From positions 59,080-123,079 of the forward strand of contig JAFZOG010000031.1 of NCBI GenBank assembly GCA_017550745.1: a DNA stretch of 64,000 bases, read 5' to 3'. Each line of letters begins with the position of its first letter. Position 1 is the stretch's first letter. A model generated the notes under the pieces. That model was not told the DNA's origin, did not search any database, and saw only the letters and a list, made by a program, of their open reading frames with translations. This stretch comes from Clostridia bacterium. GTDB taxonomy: Bacteria > Bacillota > Clostridia > Christensenellales > Aristaeellaceae. Of this stretch, positions 5,051 to 26,928 are shown in pieces. Position numbers and translations under genes: made by a program.

Positions 5051-6565
5051 TTATTCGAGCAGGAACGGCGCCAGCGGCAGGCCGTTTTCCCCAAACAGGC
5101 ACACGGCGGCATAGTCCGTCCAGGCGTAACGGGCGGCAAGGGGACGCGGCGCTTTGGGCGAGGAAAGGATGATCTGCCGGCCCTCGATGCGCACGTCCGC
5201 GGGATGGAACACGCCGTCCTCCCCCGCGATTTCCATGAGATACTCCCCGCCGACCGAAACCGCCACCGGCGCGGAAAGGTCTATGTACAGCTTTCCCTCC
5301 ATCCGGCGCTTGCCCAGGGCATAGACAGGCTGCCGGGCAGGTTCGCGGTAAATCGTTTCCAGCGCGGTTTCATACAGCCTTTCCCCCACCACCCGCTTGT
5401 TGGTGGGGTGGATGTTGTCGAATTCGCCCTGGTCGATGAGGACAGCCAGGCCGGTGTTCCGCACGTTGCGCCATACCTTCTCCTGCGCCAGGCGCAGGGC
5501 AGGCCAGAGCTTGCTGTCCTCCTCCGCCGCGCCGTCGATCCACATGGGCAGCTGTACGTTCAGGAAGGGCAGCTCCCCGTCCCTGAACAGCGTCCGCAGC
5601 TGGAAGATAAAGGAGGTCAGCAGCACGTCGTACTGTTTGGTGCGCCAGGTATCCTCTTCCCCCTGGTAAAACAGCACGCCCGTCAGCGCGGCAGGCACGA
5701 CCCGCTCCAGCATGGTATGGTACAGCCCTGCCGGGCGGAAAGGCGACCCCTCCCCTACCGGCGGGTTCCAGGGCGGGCAGGGGCCGAGGACGGCGTTCAG
5801 CTCTTTCGTGGTATATTCGGGATGCTCTGCTTTCAGGGCTTCGGCCTTCTTGGCCCATTCATCCAGGCCGCTGAAAAACGCGCCTTCCTCCGCCAGATAC
5901 TGGTCCATGGTTTTGCCCGCCCAGCTGTCCCGGTACTCTTTCAGGTAACGCTGTCCCTCGGCGGTGCGGGACAGCGTTTCTTCGCTCATCCAGCAGGTAA
6001 CGGACGTGCCGCCCCAATAGCAGTCGATCACGCCCACGGGCAAATACAGATGGTCCTGCAGCTTCATGGCGAAAAAGTAGGCCGCGGCGCTCATATCCTG
6101 CGCCGCGCCGGGCGCCACCGCCATCCAGCGGGCGTTTTTATTGGCTTCCTCGGCGTCCGGCGTAAAGCGGGCGAACTTGGGCACGTTGAAATAGCGCACC
6201 TGGGGATTGCGGTGGGACAGGATGAGCCGCTTGCCCTCGTCCGCGTTCTGCAGCTCCAGCTCCATGTTGCTCTGGCCCCCGGCCAGGAATACTTCGCCGA
6301 TGGCGATGTCGCAGCAGATGGTTTTTTCCTGCCCGTCCGTCACGGTCAGCACGCAGCCCATCCGGGCCTCCTGGGGCGGCAGGCAAAAGCAAAAGCGGCC
6401 TTTTTCAATCACCGTTTCATCCTGGCCCAGGGTCCTTCCCCCTTCGTCCAACAGGCAGCAGGACAGGCGCGCGCCGTCCTCGCCGGTTCCGAACACCCGG
6501 ATTTCTTTTCTTCTGCACAGCACCGCGCCGTCACTGAACAAAGCCGCAAGCTGAAAACGGGCCAT
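5051..6565 (-). CDS. sialate O-acetylesterase family SGNH esterase
   Basis: A 504-residue intracellular carbohydrate esterase. The nucleophile block is GGQSNM with S99, the second block is FYQGEED (299-305), and the Asp-His pair lies in DNIHPTNK (D383, H386). The family removes acetyl groups from sialic acid or acetylated plant polysaccharides. Its operon with a GH130 phosphorylase suggests acetylated mannan or glycan fragments, which is inference. The ATG at 6565 follows GAGGGAGGAA. No signal peptide is seen. Confidence 0.88.
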   Translation of the reverse strand: MARFQLAALFSDGAVLCRRKEIRVFGTGEDGARLSCCLLDEGGRTLGQDETVIEKGRFCFCLPPQEARMGCVLTVTDGQEKTICCDIAIGEVFLAGGQSNMELELQNADEGKRLILSHRNPQVRYFNVPKFARFTPDAEEANKNARWMAVAPGAAQDMSAAAYFFAMKLQDHLYLPVGVIDCYWGGTSVTCWMSEETLSRTAEGQRYLKEYRDSWAGKTMDQYLAEEGAFFSGLDEWAKKAEALKAEHPEYTTKELNAVLGPCPPWNPPVGEGSPFRPAGLYHTMLERVVPAALTGVLFYQGEEDTWRTKQYDVLLTSFIFQLRTLFRDGELPFLNVQLPMWIDGAAEEDSKLWPALRLAQEKVWRNVRNTGLAVLIDQGEFDNIHPTNKRVVGERLYETALETIYREPARQPVYALGKRRMEGKLYIDLSAPVAVSVGGEYLMEIAGEDGVFHPADVRIEGRQIILSSPKAPRPLAARYAWTDYAAVCLFGENGLPLAPFLLE

Positions 6566-10086: not shown

Positions 10087-10449
10087 TCAGTTTTTCTGCC
10101 CCCATTGTACAGGAAAAACCGCCTCCGGACAAGGGGCATATCCAGCCCGGTTTCTGCCGCGGCAATTCAGCGAAGGCGCGTAAAACAGAACCAAAACATG
10201 AAAGACCTCCTGGTCCTCATACACCAGGAGGTCTTCCATGGACACCCGCAAAAGCCGGGCCAGGGCCAGCAGGTTGTCCACCGTGGGCAGGCACTCGCCG
10301 TGCTGCCACTTGTAAATGGCCTGCGGGTACTCAAACCCGAAATAGGTTTGCAGGTCCCGCACGGTCAGCCCGGCCTGGCGCCGGTGCCGCTCAATGCTGC
10401 GGCCCGTGCCAGCCAGGTCGATGACCGGAAACGCGGTCTGTGTATTCAT
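10087..10449 (-). CDS. XRE-family HTH transcriptional regulator
   Basis: A 120-residue protein with an N-terminal Cro/C1-type HTH at about residues 15-75: GRSIERHRRQAGLTVRDLQ, then FEYPQAIYKWQHGECLP as the recognition region, then DNLLALARLLRVSMEDLLV. The C-terminal 45 residues are low in structure. The pattern IDLAGTGRSI...YKWQ...LPTVDNL is common in clostridial stand-alone regulators. It is the first gene of the cysK transcript and may regulate itself or cysK. Confidence 0.8.
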   Translation of the reverse strand: MNTQTAFPVIDLAGTGRSIERHRRQAGLTVRDLQTYFGFEYPQAIYKWQHGECLPTVDNLLALARLLRVSMEDLLVYEDQEVFHVLVLFYAPSLNCRGRNRAGYAPCPEAVFPVQWGQKN

Positions 10450-10663
10450 CGAACCATCCTTTCTCGCACACGCATCCTTTTCTCAAGTCGGGACACAAAA
10501 TGCGTCCTCTGGGGATAGTATACAGCAGGAACAGAATGAAAATTGAAAAGTCATTCCGAATATCAAGACGGTTCATGCAAGCGGTGAAACAGGTGTAATT
10601 ATATTAAAAGGCAGCCGCTTTGTCAATCCGTTTTGTCCAAATATGGATTAAACTGCTGGTTGA

Positions 10664-10693
10664 ATGACAAAGGGCCTTTCTTTATGCTATCCT
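10664..10693 (+). promoter_or_regulatory. promoter box copy 1 (GGTTGAATGACAAA / TATCCT)
   Basis: ATGACA, an 18-bp spacer and TATCCT. The -35 side lies in a 14-base block, GGTTGAATGACAAA, that recurs identically before the two noncoding segments downstream. It lies 37 bp before the small basic-protein gene. The stretch 10450-10657 before it holds only the HTH leader and A/T-rich sequence. Confidence 0.55.
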
Positions 10694-10729
10694 ATTTCAC
10701 GGAGAAACATGAAAAGGAGTGAAGGAGAA

Positions 10730-10966
10730 ATGACCCGCATGATTCCCTACGGCAAGATGTCGAAAAGAGAAAAGAAGGCTTACAATGAAAAGCGCCGCGT
10801 CGTCTGGGGGTTCAGCCCGGTGACGCGAAAAAAGGGAAACGCGAAAGCGTACAGCCGGAAAAAGGCGCGGAAATGGGAGGATGGCATCCCGTTGACCGCG
10901 CTTTTTCTTATTGTTTATCCTGCCGAAAATGTTTTCCGGCCTGCTGTAAAGGATCATCCGGCCTGA
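10730..10966 (+). CDS. small basic hypothetical protein
   Basis: A 78-residue, strongly basic protein (MTRMIPYGKMSKREKKAY..., FSPVTRKKGNAKAYSRKKAR). The start has GAAGGAGAAA directly upstream. Small proteins with a similar core (GK-SK...NPVTRK...KAYxRKKARxW) occur in clostridia, without known function; that is from memory. The Lys/Arg content suits nucleic acid binding. A terminator hairpin lies inside its 3' part, so the transcript may end before the stop codon. Confidence 0.6.
   Translation: MTRMIPYGKMSKREKKAYNEKRRVVWGFSPVTRKKGNAKAYSRKKARKWEDGIPLTALFLIVYPAENVFRPAVKDHPA
10865..10906 (+). terminator. terminator-like hairpin inside a coding 3' end
   Basis: GCGCGG (10865-10870) pairs with CCGCGC (10896-10901), with an inner GGGA/TCCC pairing, followed by TTTTTC. 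It falls about 60 bases before the stop codon of the small basic-protein gene. Confidence 0.65.
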
Positions 10967-10984
10967 TTTCAAACCACCGGTTGA

Positions 10985-11013
10985 ATGACAAAGGCGTATC
11001 CCTGTGCTATCCT
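10985..11013 (+). promoter_or_regulatory. promoter box copy 2, before noncoding segment A
   Basis: GGTTGAATGACAAA then TGCTATCCT; ATGACA to TATCCT spacing is 17 bp. An imperfect inverted repeat (TTCAAACC-acc-GGTTGAA) covers the upstream edge. Predicted transcription start is near 11020. Confidence 0.55.
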
Positions 11014-11545
11014 ATGGCCATCGGCAGGGGAAACCCCCTGATCGAAGAAGTCCGGCAGAAAAACCGACTTCGGGCATGCACCTCCGTCGGCAGGAGATCA
11101 GGCGCACACAGCAGCGCTGTCAGGCGGCAATCAGGAACCGGCAAGCCCATGTCTTCCGATTCCGGGCCGTGAGGCACCCATCACCCATAGTCAACCGTTC
11201 CGTCCGGGAGGTGGAACACGATGGCGGGTGTCGGCAGCAAACGACGATCTTAGCTGAATTGCACTTTTGATGATTTTATCATCGCGTCTGTCTGCTTCAA
11301 TTGCATGTCATGGACGCCCGCCACGGCCGGCGTGCCGACCGGGGAAACCGGGAAAGCAAAACGCAAATCGACTGGCTGAACCGAGCGCGGTAACGGAATG
11401 GGAACGCCCGGCAGCAGCGGCACAGGACGCAAACAGGCGAAGCGCGGCTTGGTTTACAAGGCCCCCGGAACGCCATTTCTGCCAGCTTTCCTGTGGAAAC
11501 AGGGAAAGGGAGCATCGCCTCCCCCCCCTTCCACAGGAGAGAAAA
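11014..11545 (+). ncRNA. putative long structured RNA, copy A
   Basis: About 530 bases with no credible gene and with several stems. It shares, in the same order, a set of motifs with copy B: CAGGGGAAACCCCCTGATC; a GAAGTCCGG/CCGACTTC hairpin (11047-11071); GGCGCACACAGCAGCGCT (11101-11118); GGCCGTGAGGC; CCATAGTCAACCGTTCCG (11185-11202); GCGTCTGT (11284-11291); GGACGCCCGCCACGGCCGG (11312-11330); and GGTAACGGAATGGGAACG. A 10-bp perfect stem, TCCTGTGGAA (11489-11498) with TTCCACAGGA (11529-11538), closes it. No T-run follows, so the 3' end may be processed. The shared order with changed spacers is what a structured RNA would show. No known class was recognised. Confidence 0.5.
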
Positions 11546-11563
11546 AATTCAACCACGGGTTGA

Positions 11564-11592
11564 ATGACAAACCGGAAAAACCGTGGTATCCT
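11564..11592 (+). promoter_or_regulatory. promoter box copy 3, before noncoding segment B
   Basis: GGTTGAATGACAAA then GGTATCCT, spacing 17 bp. ATTCAACC-acg-GGTTGAAT (11548-11566) is a perfect inverted repeat overlapping the box and a possible operator. Confidence 0.55.
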
Positions 11593-12145
11593 GAGCGCAT
11601 GATCAGGGAAACCCCCGATCCAGAGCACCTTGACAACTGAACAGCTATCAGGAAAAGCGATCAGCAGGAAAGCAAACACTTTCCTGTTTATGAAGCCAAG
11701 CCAGAGAACCGGCTTCAGATGAACAAAGGTATTCCCTGTGGGTATAGGCGCACACAGCAGCGCTTGTCAGTATCGCTTAAAACGAAGGAATTTGCAACCA
11801 GGGGCAAGAAAACCCCAGGCCGTGAAGCGCTCGTTTCCCCACGACCATAACCGTTCCGAAAGGAGGCGCGGTCACCGGTGGGTTAGACTGACAGGTCAAT
11901 CTATTTTTCAATAACGATAAAGATAAACAACAGCGTCTGTAAGCAGTGCCCATATTTTTGACCGGCGTTCATCAGGGCGTCCGTCACGACCGGCGTGAAA
12001 AGCGCGGCGGCGGAACAGCGGAAGAACAAGCTCCATGGCCTGACCGGAAGGTACGGAACGGGAACGGAAGGCAGGCGCGTGAAAGACGCAGCATGGGGCG
12101 AGGGACGCCAAAGAACCAATGCGGCGCGGATCATTCTCTGGTATG
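11593..12145 (+). ncRNA. putative long structured RNA, copy B
   Basis: A second copy of the copy A layout: CAGGGAAACCCCCGATC; a perfect 7-bp hairpin TGAAGCC/GGCTTCA (11691-11717); GGCGCACACAGCAGCGCT (11747-11764); GGCCGTGAAGC; GACCATAACCGTTCCG (11843-11858); GCGTCTGT (11933-11940); GGGCGTCCGTCACGACCGG (11975-11993); and GGTACGGAACGGGAACG (12050-12066). Relative to A it has an insertion of about 70 bases containing a perfect 8-bp stem CAGGAAAG/CTTTCCTG (11665-11686). No terminator separates it from the DUF2828 gene 390 bases downstream, so it could be a separate RNA or a very long leader. Confidence 0.5.
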
Positions 12146-12147
12146 AG

Positions 12148-12196
12148 AGGGATTAGGGATTACGGAAACTGACCCTACCCCTAATCCCTAATCCCT
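12148..12196. repeat. GGGATTA heptad inverted repeat
   Basis: AGGGATTAGGGATTA and its exact complement TAATCCCTAATCCCT form a 15-bp perfect stem with a 19-base loop. The same heptads in inverted orientation occur at 61822-61922, and a degenerate half near 34787. Confidence 0.8.
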
Positions 12197-12533
12197 GAAA
12201 TCCCCGAAACGGGGAGGACACAGGAACAGTCATCAAGGAAGGAACGCGGGGGCGATGACGGCCCCCGGCAGGAAAACGGCGAACGGTACGGGCGGCTGAA
12301 ATGCCCCCGGCGTCCGGCGCGGCCTCATAGCACAGGCGGCGCGGCCCTTCCTGCCCCGGCTTTCGGATACGGCGAAAAGGCCGAAAGCGCGGTGGTTCCG
12401 GCGCTGCAGGAACGCCCCCGCAGGGCAGTCCGGGGAGGATGGAGAGAGGATCGATTGTATCCCCAGATGGCGGACCTTATGTCCTCGCGGCGGCTGAAAT
12501 GTCGTCAGCAAGGAGGAAAGGAGGAAAAACGAT
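12197..12533 (+). other. structured leader before DUF2828 gene
   Basis: No gene is visible. Several short GC-rich pairings occur: TCCCCG-aaa-CGGGGA, GGGGGC-gatgac-GGCCCCC, GGCGCGGCC with GGCGGCGCGGCC, and GGCTTTCG with CCGAAAGC. GGCGGCTGAAATG occurs twice (near 12291 and 12490). It ends with two overlapping Shine-Dalgarno sites (AAGGAGGAAAGGAGG) before the ATG. Confidence 0.5.
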
Positions 12534-14033
12534 ATGAGCTATCTTGAAAGCTTGAAAACTGAGGCGAACTACACCCGCACCCTGAACGGCGCGAAAACCC
12601 ACGGCAGCACCGGCGACGCCTGCCTGGACTTCTTCGCCGTGGCGGGCGGCATGCGCTACCGCCGGCGGAACGACCAGATCAATCTGTTCGACCGGGCGTA
12701 CATCGAGACCCCGGAGCTGGCGGCGAAGCTGCTGTTTCACCTGCGGGACATCCGCGGCGGCATGGGCGAAAGGACGCTGTTCCGCACCCTGTTTCGCCAC
12801 GTGGCCTTTGCCTGGCCCGAAACCGCGAAAAAGAATGTCAAGTACATCGCGGAGTTTGGCCGCTGGGACGACCTGCTGTGCCTGCTGGGCACCCCCGCCG
12901 AGGAAGAGGCGGTCCGGGTGATCAAGCTGCAGCTGGCCGACGACATGGCCGCGCTGAAGAAGCGTGTGCTGGGCGACGAGGAAGCGCACATTTCCCTGCT
13001 GACGAAATGGCTGCCTTCGGACAACACGTCCAGCCCCAAGACCTGTTCCATCGCCAGGAAGCTGATGAAAGCCCTGGGCATGGACAGCCAGGAATACCGC
13101 GCCATGCTGACCGGCCTCCGCGCGCGTATTGGTCTGGTGGAACGGAGTCTTACCAGGAAGCAGCCCGAAAAGGTAAACTATGAAGCCGTGCCCGCCCAGG
13201 CCATGCTGAAATACCGCTGCGCCTTCGCCGGCAAAGACGGCGGACGGTTCAGCAGCTTCCTGGGGGAAGTAAAAAACGGGAAGAAGCGCATCCACACGGA
13301 CACGCTGTTCCCCTATGAAGTGCTGCGGCCCTTCTTCAACGGCGGCTTCTGGAGCGTCACCGACCCCAAGGGCATGGCCGCACTAGAACAGCTGTGGAAC
13401 CATCTGCCCGGCGAGATCGGAAGCGCAAACGCCATCAGCGTGGTGGATACGTCCGGGTCCATGTACTGCTCCTGCGGCCCGCTGAAGCCCGCGCTCATTT
13501 CCCAGGCCATGGGCCTGTACTGCGCCGAGCGGTGTGAAGGTGTATTCCACAACCACCTGATCACCTTCGAGAGCACGCCCCATCTGGTGGAAATCAAGGG
13601 CAGCACCCTGCGGGACAAGCTGCGCTACATCGGCTCCCTGCCCTGGGGCGGCAGCACCAACCTGGAAGGCGTGTTCGACCTGATCCTGCGCACGGCGTTA
13701 AACGCCCGCGCGAAGCAGGAGGAAATGCCCGCTGTGGTCTATATCTTCTCCGATATGGAGTTCAACCAGGCTGTGCGCGATCCCAACAAGACCGTGTATG
13801 AAGCCTGCAAGGAGAAGTTTGAGGCACACGGCTACCGGATGCCGGCCGTGGTGTTCCACAACGTGAACAGCTGGCAGATGCAGGCCCCCGTCACCGCCCA
13901 CACGAAGGGCACGGCCCTGCAGAGCGGCGCGAGCACCCACGCCCTCAAAGAAAAGTTTGACGGCAACATCACCCCCATGGACCACATGCTGCGGGTGCTG
14001 AACGGAGAAAGATACAGCATGATCCATGCCTGA
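12534..14033 (+). CDS. DUF2828 / TROVE-like vWA protein (Ro60-like)
   Basis: A 499-residue protein with a helical-repeat N-terminal half (about 1-290) and a von Willebrand A domain (about 300-490). The N-terminus has the DUF2828 pattern: NGAKTHGSTGDACLDFF, LLFHLRDIRGGMGER (67-80), AEFGRWDDLL (106-115). The vWA MIDAS is intact: DTSGS at 305-309, T375 in GGSTN, D407 in FSDMEF. DUF2828 proteins share the HEAT-plus-vWA plan of TROVE/Ro60 proteins, which bind misfolded RNAs and Y RNAs; that kinship is from family knowledge, and RNA binding here is inferred. It is downstream of two duplicated noncoding segments and followed by a strong terminator. Confidence 0.85.
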   Translation: MSYLESLKTEANYTRTLNGAKTHGSTGDACLDFFAVAGGMRYRRRNDQINLFDRAYIETPELAAKLLFHLRDIRGGMGERTLFRTLFRHVAFAWPETAKKNVKYIAEFGRWDDLLCLLGTPAEEEAVRVIKLQLADDMAALKKRVLGDEEAHISLLTKWLPSDNTSSPKTCSIARKLMKALGMDSQEYRAMLTGLRARIGLVERSLTRKQPEKVNYEAVPAQAMLKYRCAFAGKDGGRFSSFLGEVKNGKKRIHTDTLFPYEVLRPFFNGGFWSVTDPKGMAALEQLWNHLPGEIGSANAISVVDTSGSMYCSCGPLKPALISQAMGLYCAERCEGVFHNHLITFESTPHLVEIKGSTLRDKLRYIGSLPWGGSTNLEGVFDLILRTALNARAKQEEMPAVVYIFSDMEFNQAVRDPNKTVYEACKEKFEAHGYRMPAVVFHNVNSWQMQAPVTAHTKGTALQSGASTHALKEKFDGNITPMDHMLRVLNGERYSMIHA

Positions 14034-24721: not shown

Positions 24722-26362
24722 ATGCTGAATGAAGTGCTGAAAAAGACCATTGTCGACTTCTTTTTGGAGCGGGCAAAAGAGTACCCCGATCAAACGGCCG
24801 TGATGGATGTGCGCGGCGCTTATACTTACGGCCAGCTGAATTGGCGCAGCGCGCTGCTGGCGGGGAAGCTGCTCGATACCTGCAAAAGCCTGGGCACGGA
24901 TGTCAAAGCGGCTTCCTCCGAAGGAAAAAGCGGCCCGAGAATTGCCGTGCTCCTGCCGCGAACCCGGGAATACCTGGTGGCTTTTCTTGCCGTGATCCGC
25001 GCCGGATGCGCCGTGATCCCTTTGGATTCAGATTATCCGAAGGAAAGGATACAAACCATTCAGCAGGACGCGGACTGCCTGCTCTTTATCACAACAAAGG
25101 CGCTTTCGGAAAAAACCGGCGATACCCCCAGGCTCCTGACGGATGAACTGGAGGACGAAAAGGACGCGGACATCAGCCTGAACCTGTCCAACCCGGACAT
25201 TGAGGGCCTGCTGATTTTCACTTCCGGCTCCACCGGCAAGCCCAAGGGCGTGATCCACCGGCAGCGGATTTTTTCCTGCGGCTATGCGCTTTTGAAGGGC
25301 TACCATCCCTTCACGGAAAACGACGTGATCGGCTGTATGGCGGGCTTTCCCTTCATCGCGTCCCTGCAGGATCTGTGTCCGCCGCTGATGGTGGGGGGCA
25401 GCGTGTATATTTTTAGCGAAAAAGAACGCAAAAACACGGATCTGCTGTTTGAAGTGATGCGGAAGCGGCATATCACCGGCATGTTCCTGCCGCCCCAGCT
25501 GTTCGCGGTCATGCGGGAGCTGTACGGCCGCCTGCCGCTGAAATATGTGATGTTATCCGGGGAAAAATCCAAGGTCAGCTATCCTGACGACGGCAACCTG
25601 ATCGAATCCTACGGCTCCAGCGAGACCGCGGGCGTGCTGTACCATTGGGTGGGGCAGGACGACCCGCGGCTGCTGGGCAAGCCTGCCGGCGGGGCCAGGG
25701 TGTATCTGCTGGACGAAGACGGAAAAGTCATCGATCAGCCCGGCGAAATCGGTGAGCTTTGCGTGGTCAGCCCCTGGCTGGCCTTGGGATACAACGGGCT
25801 GGCAAAAGAAACGGAAGATCGGTTCATCCCCTGCCCCTTTGAGCCGGGTGAGCGGATGTGCCGCTCCGGCGACTACATGGCGTGGGACGAAAACGGCAAT
25901 CTGCTGTTCCACGGCCGGAAAGACCGGATGGTCAAGCTCCGGGGCTACCGGGTGGAACTGGGCGAAATTGAAAACGCCCTGATCCAGGCCGCGGAAGTGG
26001 CGGAAGCCGCCTGTATCCCCGTAAAGGTCAGCGGCGGCGACAAGCTGTGCTGCTATTATACCGGCGATGAAAACGCCGATCCTGCCGCGTTGAAAGCGCT
26101 GGTGAAAAAAACGCTCCCGGAATACATGGTGCCGGATTATTTCGTTCACCTGGACGCCCTGCCCCGAAACGAGCGGAATAAGGTGAATTACCTGGCGCTC
26201 CAGGCCATGGAGCCGCCGGCAGCCGGCAACAGGATCACGCCTGGTTCCGTGAACGCTACGGGGAAGAAGTATGGTGCAATATGCCCCCGGTGGCGCAATC
26301 CAAAGAAGCCATCAATCAGGCCAGCCGGGAGATTCGTCTCAGCTTCGGCGCGGAGCAGGTGA
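24722..26362 (+). CDS. NRPS-like amino acid adenylation domain protein
   Basis: A 546-residue frame. Residues about 1-495 are a complete ANL adenylation domain: A3 TSGSTGKPKG (167-176), A5 YGSSET (297-302), A7 RSGDYMAW (381-388), A8 GRKDRMVKLRGYRVELGEIE (398-417), and A10 with catalytic K487 (RNERNKVNY). It would activate an amino or aryl acid as the adenylate. The last 50 residues are unlike any domain because the coding sense moves to another frame near 26220. No carrier-protein domain (LGGxS) follows. The gene therefore looks damaged or truncated after a working adenylation domain. Confidence 0.85.
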   Translation: MLNEVLKKTIVDFFLERAKEYPDQTAVMDVRGAYTYGQLNWRSALLAGKLLDTCKSLGTDVKAASSEGKSGPRIAVLLPRTREYLVAFLAVIRAGCAVIPLDSDYPKERIQTIQQDADCLLFITTKALSEKTGDTPRLLTDELEDEKDADISLNLSNPDIEGLLIFTSGSTGKPKGVIHRQRIFSCGYALLKGYHPFTENDVIGCMAGFPFIASLQDLCPPLMVGGSVYIFSEKERKNTDLLFEVMRKRHITGMFLPPQLFAVMRELYGRLPLKYVMLSGEKSKVSYPDDGNLIESYGSSETAGVLYHWVGQDDPRLLGKPAGGARVYLLDEDGKVIDQPGEIGELCVVSPWLALGYNGLAKETEDRFIPCPFEPGERMCRSGDYMAWDENGNLLFHGRKDRMVKLRGYRVELGEIENALIQAAEVAEAACIPVKVSGGDKLCCYYTGDENADPAALKALVKKTLPEYMVPDYFVHLDALPRNERNKVNYLALQAMEPPAAGNRITPGSVNATGKKYGAICPRWRNPKKPSIRPAGRFVSASARSR

Positions 26363-26928
26363 GCGAGGCGGAAAAATTCTGGGGCGTTTCCCATTCCGTG
26401 ATGGCAATTGCCGCGGCGCTGATATCGCTCAGCAGAACAACGGGAAAACAGCATGTGATGGTGAACTGGATCTTCAACAACCGCCTGGCCCCGGAAACGG
26501 AATCCGCCGTTGGTATGCTCATCAAGAACCTGCCCGCCGCCGCCCGGATGGAGGAGTTCACGGGCGTCCGGGAGCTGCTGCGCGACGTAAAGGAGCAGGT
26601 AGCGGAAGGAATCGCCCACTGCACTTACGACTTTATGACGGAGCATTATCAGGCGTATCTCGACGACTGCATGGAAGTCAATCTGCAATTGGGCATCAAC
26701 GGCAGCCCGCTCAAAGCCCTGCGCCCGACCCTTATCCCGCTGGCAGACGCCTTTACCGCCGCCGGGGCGCGCCTTGAACTGGAACTGCTGGAAAACGAAT
26801 ACGGCGACGGCGGCTTTGATTCCGAAATGGAATACGCGGAAGGCATGTTCGACAGGGAACAGATCGAAGCCTTCCACGACCTGTATATTCAGACGCTGCA
26901 AAAACTGGTTTCCTGCGATGATCCGTGA
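26281..26928 (+). pseudogene. NRPS condensation-domain C-lobe fragment
   Basis: In the frame one base behind the adenylation gene, natural-looking protein sequence starts near 26230 (DHAWFRERYGEEVW) and runs to 26928. It matches the C-terminal lobe of condensation domains: HSVMAIAAALISLSRTTGK, NNRLAPETESAVGMLIKNLP, and a final helical region. The N-terminal lobe with the HHxxxDG active site and any carrier domain are absent. No homopolymer slip site is visible. I read it as the tail of a former A-T-C module that lost its middle and its frame. A separately translated protein from the ATG at 26281 is the alternative. Confidence 0.6.

Follow-up and report, generated by a model that had tools for sequence, protein, structure and literature searches.

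Candidate giant Y-type RNAs in tandem upstream of a DUF2828 Ro-like protein gene in Clostridia

Results

Genes and features of the locus

The window, that is the whole stretch of 64,000 nucleotides analysed here, comes from a gut or rumen bacterium and carries two long noncoding units in tandem upstream of a gene for a DUF2828/DUF7788 Ro-like protein (12534..14033, plus strand), whose vWA domain has a DTSGS motif. Unit A (11020..11483, plus strand) takes its start from the promoter and its end from the last conserved motif, TTTCTGCC; unit B (11600..12142, plus strand) likewise runs from its promoter to the last motif. Both are candidate giant Y-type RNAs, and from promoter to last motif they span approximately 464 nt (A) and 543 nt (B), with predicted ends. 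The original prediction had located them correctly, at about 11014-11545 and 11593-12145; the starts are here corrected to approximately 11020 and 11600. Upstream lie a gene for a small basic protein of 78 aa (10730..10966, plus strand) and, on the minus strand, a gene for an Xre regulator (10087..10449) recognized by the Pfam model HTH_3. A second conserved element, a leader between B and the DUF2828 gene (12203..12533, plus strand), contains CCCGAAACGGGG followed by a GGGGGCGATGACGGCCCCC hairpin.

A and B represent two copies of a single structured RNA, each preceded by the same type of promoter. The motifs said to be common to both were found again where they had been reported: GGCGCACACAGCAGCGCT at 11101 and 11747, ACCGTTCCG at 11194 and 11850, GCGTCTG at 11284 and 11933, and CACG(G/A)CCGGCGTG at 11322 and 11985. 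Their relatedness, also claimed from the start, is borne out by local alignment, which scores 42 for the native pair, while none of 200 dinucleotide-shuffled versions of B exceeded 28. Window B reaches 161.5 bits with a covariance model whose training units were A and relatives of both A and B, window B itself being left out, and under strict filters the covariance model matches the source genome at A and B only. The five overlapping ORFs of at least 80 aa have no Pfam match at E 0.1, in agreement with the view that the stretch holds no credible gene. Rfam 15 returned nothing at its thresholds for the A/B stretch, the ROOL, GOLLD and OLE models included, and solely far-sub-threshold matches at E up to 10; this RNA was likewise unmatched in 19 related loci. 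A tRNA search of 10450-12540, up to E 10, found no tRNA-like part in the window RNAs.

The 5' part of B contains CCTTGACAACTGAACAG (11629-11645), with similar stretches in the related loci L025, L026 and L031; we take this stretch to be reminiscent of rRNA operon spacers. An inverted repeat of GGGATTA units (12149-12195), between B and the leader element, has short DNA matches in other genomes of the same family.

Promoters, regulator, small protein and leader

Three promoters of one type were identified on the plus strand. In the promoter of A (10970..11013) the -35 region is covered by an imperfect inverted repeat, CAAACC-ACC-GGTTGA, and the -10 sequence is TATCCT, that of B (11549..11592) has the perfect inverted repeat TCAACC-ACG-GGTTGA, and the third precedes the small-protein gene (10649..10693). 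TTGAATGACA and TATCCT occur at 10660 and 10688 (small protein), 10981 and 11008 (A), and 11560 and 11587 (B). Among relatives, the form TAAACC-ACA-GGTTTAATGACA, followed after 16-19 bases by TATCAT, precedes 25 of the 26 units examined, a list that lacks L009, the second units of L027, L028 and L031, L032, L038, L049, L051 and L052. The inverted repeat over the -35 region has 5 or 6 of its 6 pairs in 17 units and 3 or 4 in 8. This repeat probably serves as operator for the Xre regulator encoded at 10087-10449. Clustering of neighbours shows relatives of this regulator close to the gene in 15 of the 34 loci, the window included. The source genome encodes a second Xre protein, 54% identical over 71 aa, upstream of a TROVE gene and a tRNA-like array.

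The small basic protein was recognized as conserved by tblastn and profile hits near the same gene in other genomes. Clustering places it in 11 of 34 loci, the window included, and a profile weakly adds L036; its relatives are encoded upstream, between the RNA and the gene, or just downstream of the gene. The sole hit in searches against pfam, padloc, ncbifam and phrogs was a padloc match at E 0.023. Of 32 loci examined, 26, the window among them, have the first leader motif, of the CCCGAAACGGG type, before the gene; it is absent from L042-L045, L050 and L052. The leader hairpin of relatives has the form GGGGAAC-GATAAAG-GTTCTCC, with a stem that varies and a loop that is near-constant.

The Ro-like protein

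The protein encoded downstream of B had been predicted to be a DUF2828/vWA Ro-like protein. Pfam matched DUF2828, and DUF7788 as well, and gave no match to TROVE. The phrog_850 family, annotated as "RNA-binding protein", was matched over the whole length of the protein (E 5e-120). By tblastn, relatives are present in 678 of 50,697 phage records, and 18 of the best 25 carry the name "Ro-like RNA binding protein"; identity to the mycobacteriophage relatives (LeBron gp53) is 40%. In an hhalign comparison (24 versus 6 sequences) the family aligned with TROVE at a probability of 97.9% (E 3.4e-13) over 393 columns that cover the N-terminal part and the vWA domain. The DxSxS metal site of the vWA domain (D305, S307, S309) is invariant in the 24 sequences. 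The DUF2828 protein is read as a Ro homologue of another branch because this profile alignment is collinear and includes the vWA motif. PDB sequence searches with the protein gave no significant match.

In a midpoint-rooted tree of 43 proteins, which includes 22 of the 34 proteins of the giant-RNA group (L036, L037 and L050 labelled by kinship) and leaves out L101, L155 and L179, that group lies on one side of a branch with support of 100/100. Nearest to it are seven proteins from loci with short RNA modules (joint branch 92/94), five of which are encoded near RtcB. RtcB lies near the DUF2828 gene in 5 of 14 loci searched. In the source genome, which is 88.8% complete, no RtcB was found above the cut-off, only a fragment below it. 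On a phage-labelled faecal scaffold (L153, 610-3382), an RtcB-like RNA ligase gene stands directly before the DUF2828 gene, with short modules upstream.

Linkage of the RNA to DUF2828 genes

The DUF2828 protein, used as the sole query, retrieved 33 loci, most of them in clostridia of the gut and rumen. The RNA lies just upstream of the gene, on the same strand, in 28 of them, which are all 28 loci with at least 790 bases of upstream sequence. These are not 28 independent cases, because some of the loci are close kin (L042/L043; L035/L039/L041/L055; L024/L025). The remaining five have 0-604 bases upstream: the contigs of L029 and L054 start within the gene; L036 (422 bases) retains the 3' part of the RNA; L050 (604 bases) seemingly does so as well, by eye; and in L037 (482 bases) the leader element is present and the giant RNA was not found. 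Two or three units each occur in the window, L024 to L028 and L031.

The covariance model of the RNA core was built from 26 units, after 6 of 32 rows were dropped (five misregistered, one near copy). It gave 14 matches outside the training set, at E 1e-48 to 1e-5, including window B, L038, L046, L047, L052 and L056. An order-wide scan, with stricter filters and 6 candidates scored per genome, gave weak hits in ten other genomes; these were judged to be chance, since the DNA of G320 and G373 was inspected and several hits cover the conserved core only. Among 51 viral contigs with a 16-base core the best model score was 23.7 bits (L138), which is not convincing because the contigs had been picked for that core. 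In L024, a cobalamin riboswitch match lies downstream of the gene (5709-5866).

Covariation supports a large pseudoknotted fold

The central feature of the fold is a long-range helix. A seven-base arm, mostly CAGGCGC, stands before NN-ACAGCAG and pairs with GCGTCTG or a variant of it 148-210 bases further on (35 units). In A the 5' arm CAGGCGC with ACACAGCAG lies at 11099..11114 and the 3' arm GCGTCTG at 11284..11290; in B the 5' arm TAGGCGC with ACACAGCAG lies at 11745..11760 and the 3' arm GCGTCTG at 11933..11939 (all plus strand). Of the 35 units, 29 have a perfect partner at a distance of 120-240 bases, where shuffled sequences would give 3.0. When the units are aligned freely with MAFFT, six of the seven pairs are standard in all 35 units and the outer pair in 29; at one pair, 30 of the 35 units have a G-U wobble. 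Compensatory variants include CAGGCAC/GTGTCTG and TCGGCGC/GCGTCGA. A first count had chosen the 3' arm by a pattern that fixes much of the arm sequence, and the recount on the free alignment and shuffles gave the same result. The first model had placed a local GCGC hairpin at the ACACAGCAGCG core; this hairpin was dropped because L046, L047, L048 and L051 cannot fully form it, whereas they do retain the long-range helix.

Further pairings were tested in 35 units, a set that leaves out L043, L044 (deleted copy), L056 and two extra copies in L027; the permutations take no account of kinship. The inner helix P3 is mostly CTGTCAG/CTGACAG, with other complementary pairs in divergent units, such as GGAATTTATT/GATAAATTCC in L048 and GAAAGAC/GTCTTTC in L051. 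Its native partners pair better than in all 2000 permutations, and in the 11 divergent units 2 of 5000 permutations reached the native value; P3 is weak in L052 and in the second units of L027 and L028. The P9 hairpin around ACGGAACGG exceeds all 3000 permutations. A pseudoknot, GGYCGTG/CACGRCC, exceeds all 3000 permutations in the 30 units with both arms, by a small margin (6.60 native versus 6.57 of 7 pairs in the best permutation). Five of the 35 units gave no pseudoknot partner, and in L047 only 4 of 7 bases pair. In A, the arm GGCCGTG (11165..11171, plus strand) pairs with 11322-11328, part of the stretch CACGGCC plus GGCGTG (11322..11334, plus strand); in B, the arm GGCCGTG (11818..11824, plus strand) forms 6 of 7 pairs with its partner in CACGACCGGCGTG (11985..11997, plus strand).

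The hairpin P2 illustrates the early observation that stems are kept while their sequence changes: it reads GAAGTC...GACTTC in A (11047..11071, plus strand) and GAAGCC...GGCTTC in B (11692..11716, plus strand), and T-A, C-G and G-C occur at one pair position among relatives. In an anchored test 81 of 3000 permutations reached the native value of P2. The folding energy of B is lower than that of its shuffles (z -3.73), and that of A is no better than shuffles (z -0.22). Alignment with homologous loci thus upholds the original description of a large structured RNA of no recognized class, with covariation over 30-35 units, native pairing of P3, P9 and the pseudoknot superior to every permutation, and no Rfam 15 match.

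Short modules with the same element

The helix and ACAGCAR element of the window, CAGGCGC-ACACAGCAG...GCGTCTG, recurs in short modules beside more distant DUF2828 genes. A module was defined by NN-ACAGCAR and a seven-base arm before it that pairs without mismatch (six or more pairs being Watson-Crick) to close a helix 20-150 bases on; the DUF2828 loci searched comprised 14 phage records, nine distant clostridial loci and one viral contig. Of 66 sense motifs 49 belong to such modules, compared with none of the 6 antisense motifs and 0-2 in 20 shuffles. At least one module is present in 18 of the 24 loci (12 of the 14 phage records and 6 of the 9 clostridial loci, the viral contig not among them); no strict module was found in L101, L155, L162, L163, L172 and L174. 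The modules measure approximately 45-160 nt from arm to arm, and the letters of the helix vary widely while pairing is kept. G directly follows the 3' arm in 49 of 49 short modules, and T follows GCGTCTG in window A and B. Some modules contain a T-arm-like GGTTCRA, and one reaches 26.5 bits on the tRNA model, below the cut-off. Rfam 15 named no such RNA in the 13 DUF2828 loci searched. Since seven TROVE loci yield just three scattered hits to the strict module, we associate the ACAGCAR element with the DUF2828 branch.

In Listeria phage CKA15, three strongly transcribed noncoding regions are reported to lie at most 2 kb upstream of a Ro-like gene, Y RNAs were suggested by the authors, and the Ro-like protein was also detected in phage particles (PMC12282133). 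An array of three modules can be recognized in the CKA15 record (98.6% identity). This transcription was not counted as proof that the modules are transcribed, because the region given with coordinates (26,236-26,727, PMC12282133) is upstream of the three-module array and does not coincide with it. Its counterpart in another Listeria phage record, of approximately 490 bases (L168, 982-1473), has no ACAGCAR motif.

Discussion

It is likely, with a probability of roughly 0.8 in our estimate, that A and B are giant Y-type RNAs and partners of the DUF2828-type Ro protein encoded downstream. An RNA partner of a Ro-type ribonucleoprotein is what the original prediction had proposed, and comparative sequence evidence favours it: the Ro-like protein is related to TROVE, the ACAGCAR element is common to the giant RNAs and the short modules, and the RNA is linked to the gene in 28 of 28 testable loci. 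Each unit would be transcribed from its own sigma-A-like promoter, and the Xre regulator may act on the promoter inverted repeat and convey the conditions it senses. We propose that the Ro-like protein docks on the long-range seven-base helix and the NN-ACAGCAR after it. The rest of the RNA may gate the protein or tie it to a nuclease or ligase, by analogy with known Y RNAs, and the small basic protein is a possible third component. A large and unassigned bacterial RNA would thereby be given both a probable ancestor and a probable partner among proteins.

In each of the 28 loci with the RNA, it lies upstream of the gene and on the gene's strand, a position that would also suit a cis-acting leader that controls the DUF2828 gene, perhaps through the protein binding its own leader, with no role in trans. 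In L042, L043, L044 and L045 the last RNA motif lies 40-57 bases before the start codon, as such a leader might. This reading is nevertheless unlikely in view of the tandem copies, each with its own promoter, in the window, L024, L025 and L026, and of two additional, weaker model matches downstream of the gene in L027 (4933-5096, 6462-6675). In addition, two mycobacteriophages, two Staphylococcus phages and an E. coli phage carry short modules on the downstream side of the gene.

A second alternative is an RNA-only particle of the ROOL, GOLLD or OLE kind, with the Ro-like gene adjoining by chance or through shared regulation. These classes resemble the window RNAs in size, ornate fold, pseudoknot and an origin in Bacillota, the rumen or the gut. 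They are reported to form homo-oligomeric complexes (PMC12286853). The window RNAs differ from them in being without an Rfam match, as are those of the 19 related loci, and in being tied to a Ro-like gene in every testable locus; they also have an element in common with short RNAs on the Ro side, which leaves this alternative very improbable. A decayed gene, mobile repeat or chance similarity would agree with the sporadic occurrence of the RNA (a DNA match at E 0.001 in 12 of 200 family genomes, the source included, some of the matches short) and is scarcely credible against the compensatory changes, the fixed gene neighbourhood, the mere two model matches in the source genome and five ORFs lacking Pfam matches.

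As Y-type RNAs, A and B would be unusual members of the group. Bacterial Y RNAs are approximately 80-130 nt long, whereas the window RNAs are approximately 464-543 nt. They share with the Y RNA/Rsr systems the placement of a structured RNA beside a Ro-type gene, and sister DUF2828 loci have tandem arrays, some of them T-arm-like, with five of seven near RtcB. They differ in that the docking helix lies inside the RNA, which also has large domains at the 5' and 3' sides and a pseudoknot, and in that neither a tRNA-like module nor a match to any Rfam family was found; the protein is DUF2828/DUF7788 and, by Pfam, not TROVE like Rsr (Ro60). The phage phrog_850 systems are similar in protein family (40% to LeBron gp53), in the helix with NN-ACAGCAR and in the position next to the gene. 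Their modules are distinct in being short, often near tRNA genes, and followed by G after the 3' arm.

These comparisons suggest a course of events in which the stretch inside the helix and its flanks grew, in these gut clostridia, into a pseudoknotted RNA of approximately 464-543 nt. The expansion probably happened once; its direction is something we infer, since the root of the tree is its midpoint. The fuller proposal, that a small Ro-partner RNA expanded once to an ornate, pseudoknotted scaffold of approximately 500 nt that makes up most of the machine, with the Ro-like protein as its docking subunit, is made tentatively and at somewhat less than even odds. If true, it would connect Y RNAs to ornate RNAs that are still orphans. 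The seven-base helix with NN-ACAGCAR offers a simple signature for RNAs beside DUF2828 Ro-like genes of phages and bacteria, and the gate and scaffold roles of Y RNAs become testable with the same element in RNAs of approximately 45 to 543 nt. No title or abstract on a giant Y RNA was found in the literature on DUF2828, on large RNAs, or on Y RNA, Ro60, phage and clostridia; the phage modules were possibly described earlier in Y RNA papers (Chen 2013, 2014; Sim 2020).

Known systems provide models for such a role. In Deinococcus, Rsr is tethered to PNPase by Y RNA, and in Salmonella rsr, the Y RNAs and rtcBA form one operon (rsr-yrlBA-rtcBA; PMC7790460 for both). A scaffolding or gating function of the giant RNAs may be analogous to the Deinococcus tether. 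TROVE proteins with a tRNA-like partner are reported from jumbo phages (PMC7824862). The source genome itself has a contig (C182; L190, 3651-6055) with a TROVE/vWA_Ro60 gene, an upstream array and an Xre gene similar to the one in the window. This contig may be foreign, because the genome has an estimated contamination of 7.45%. By eye, the units of its array resemble circularly permuted tRNAs.
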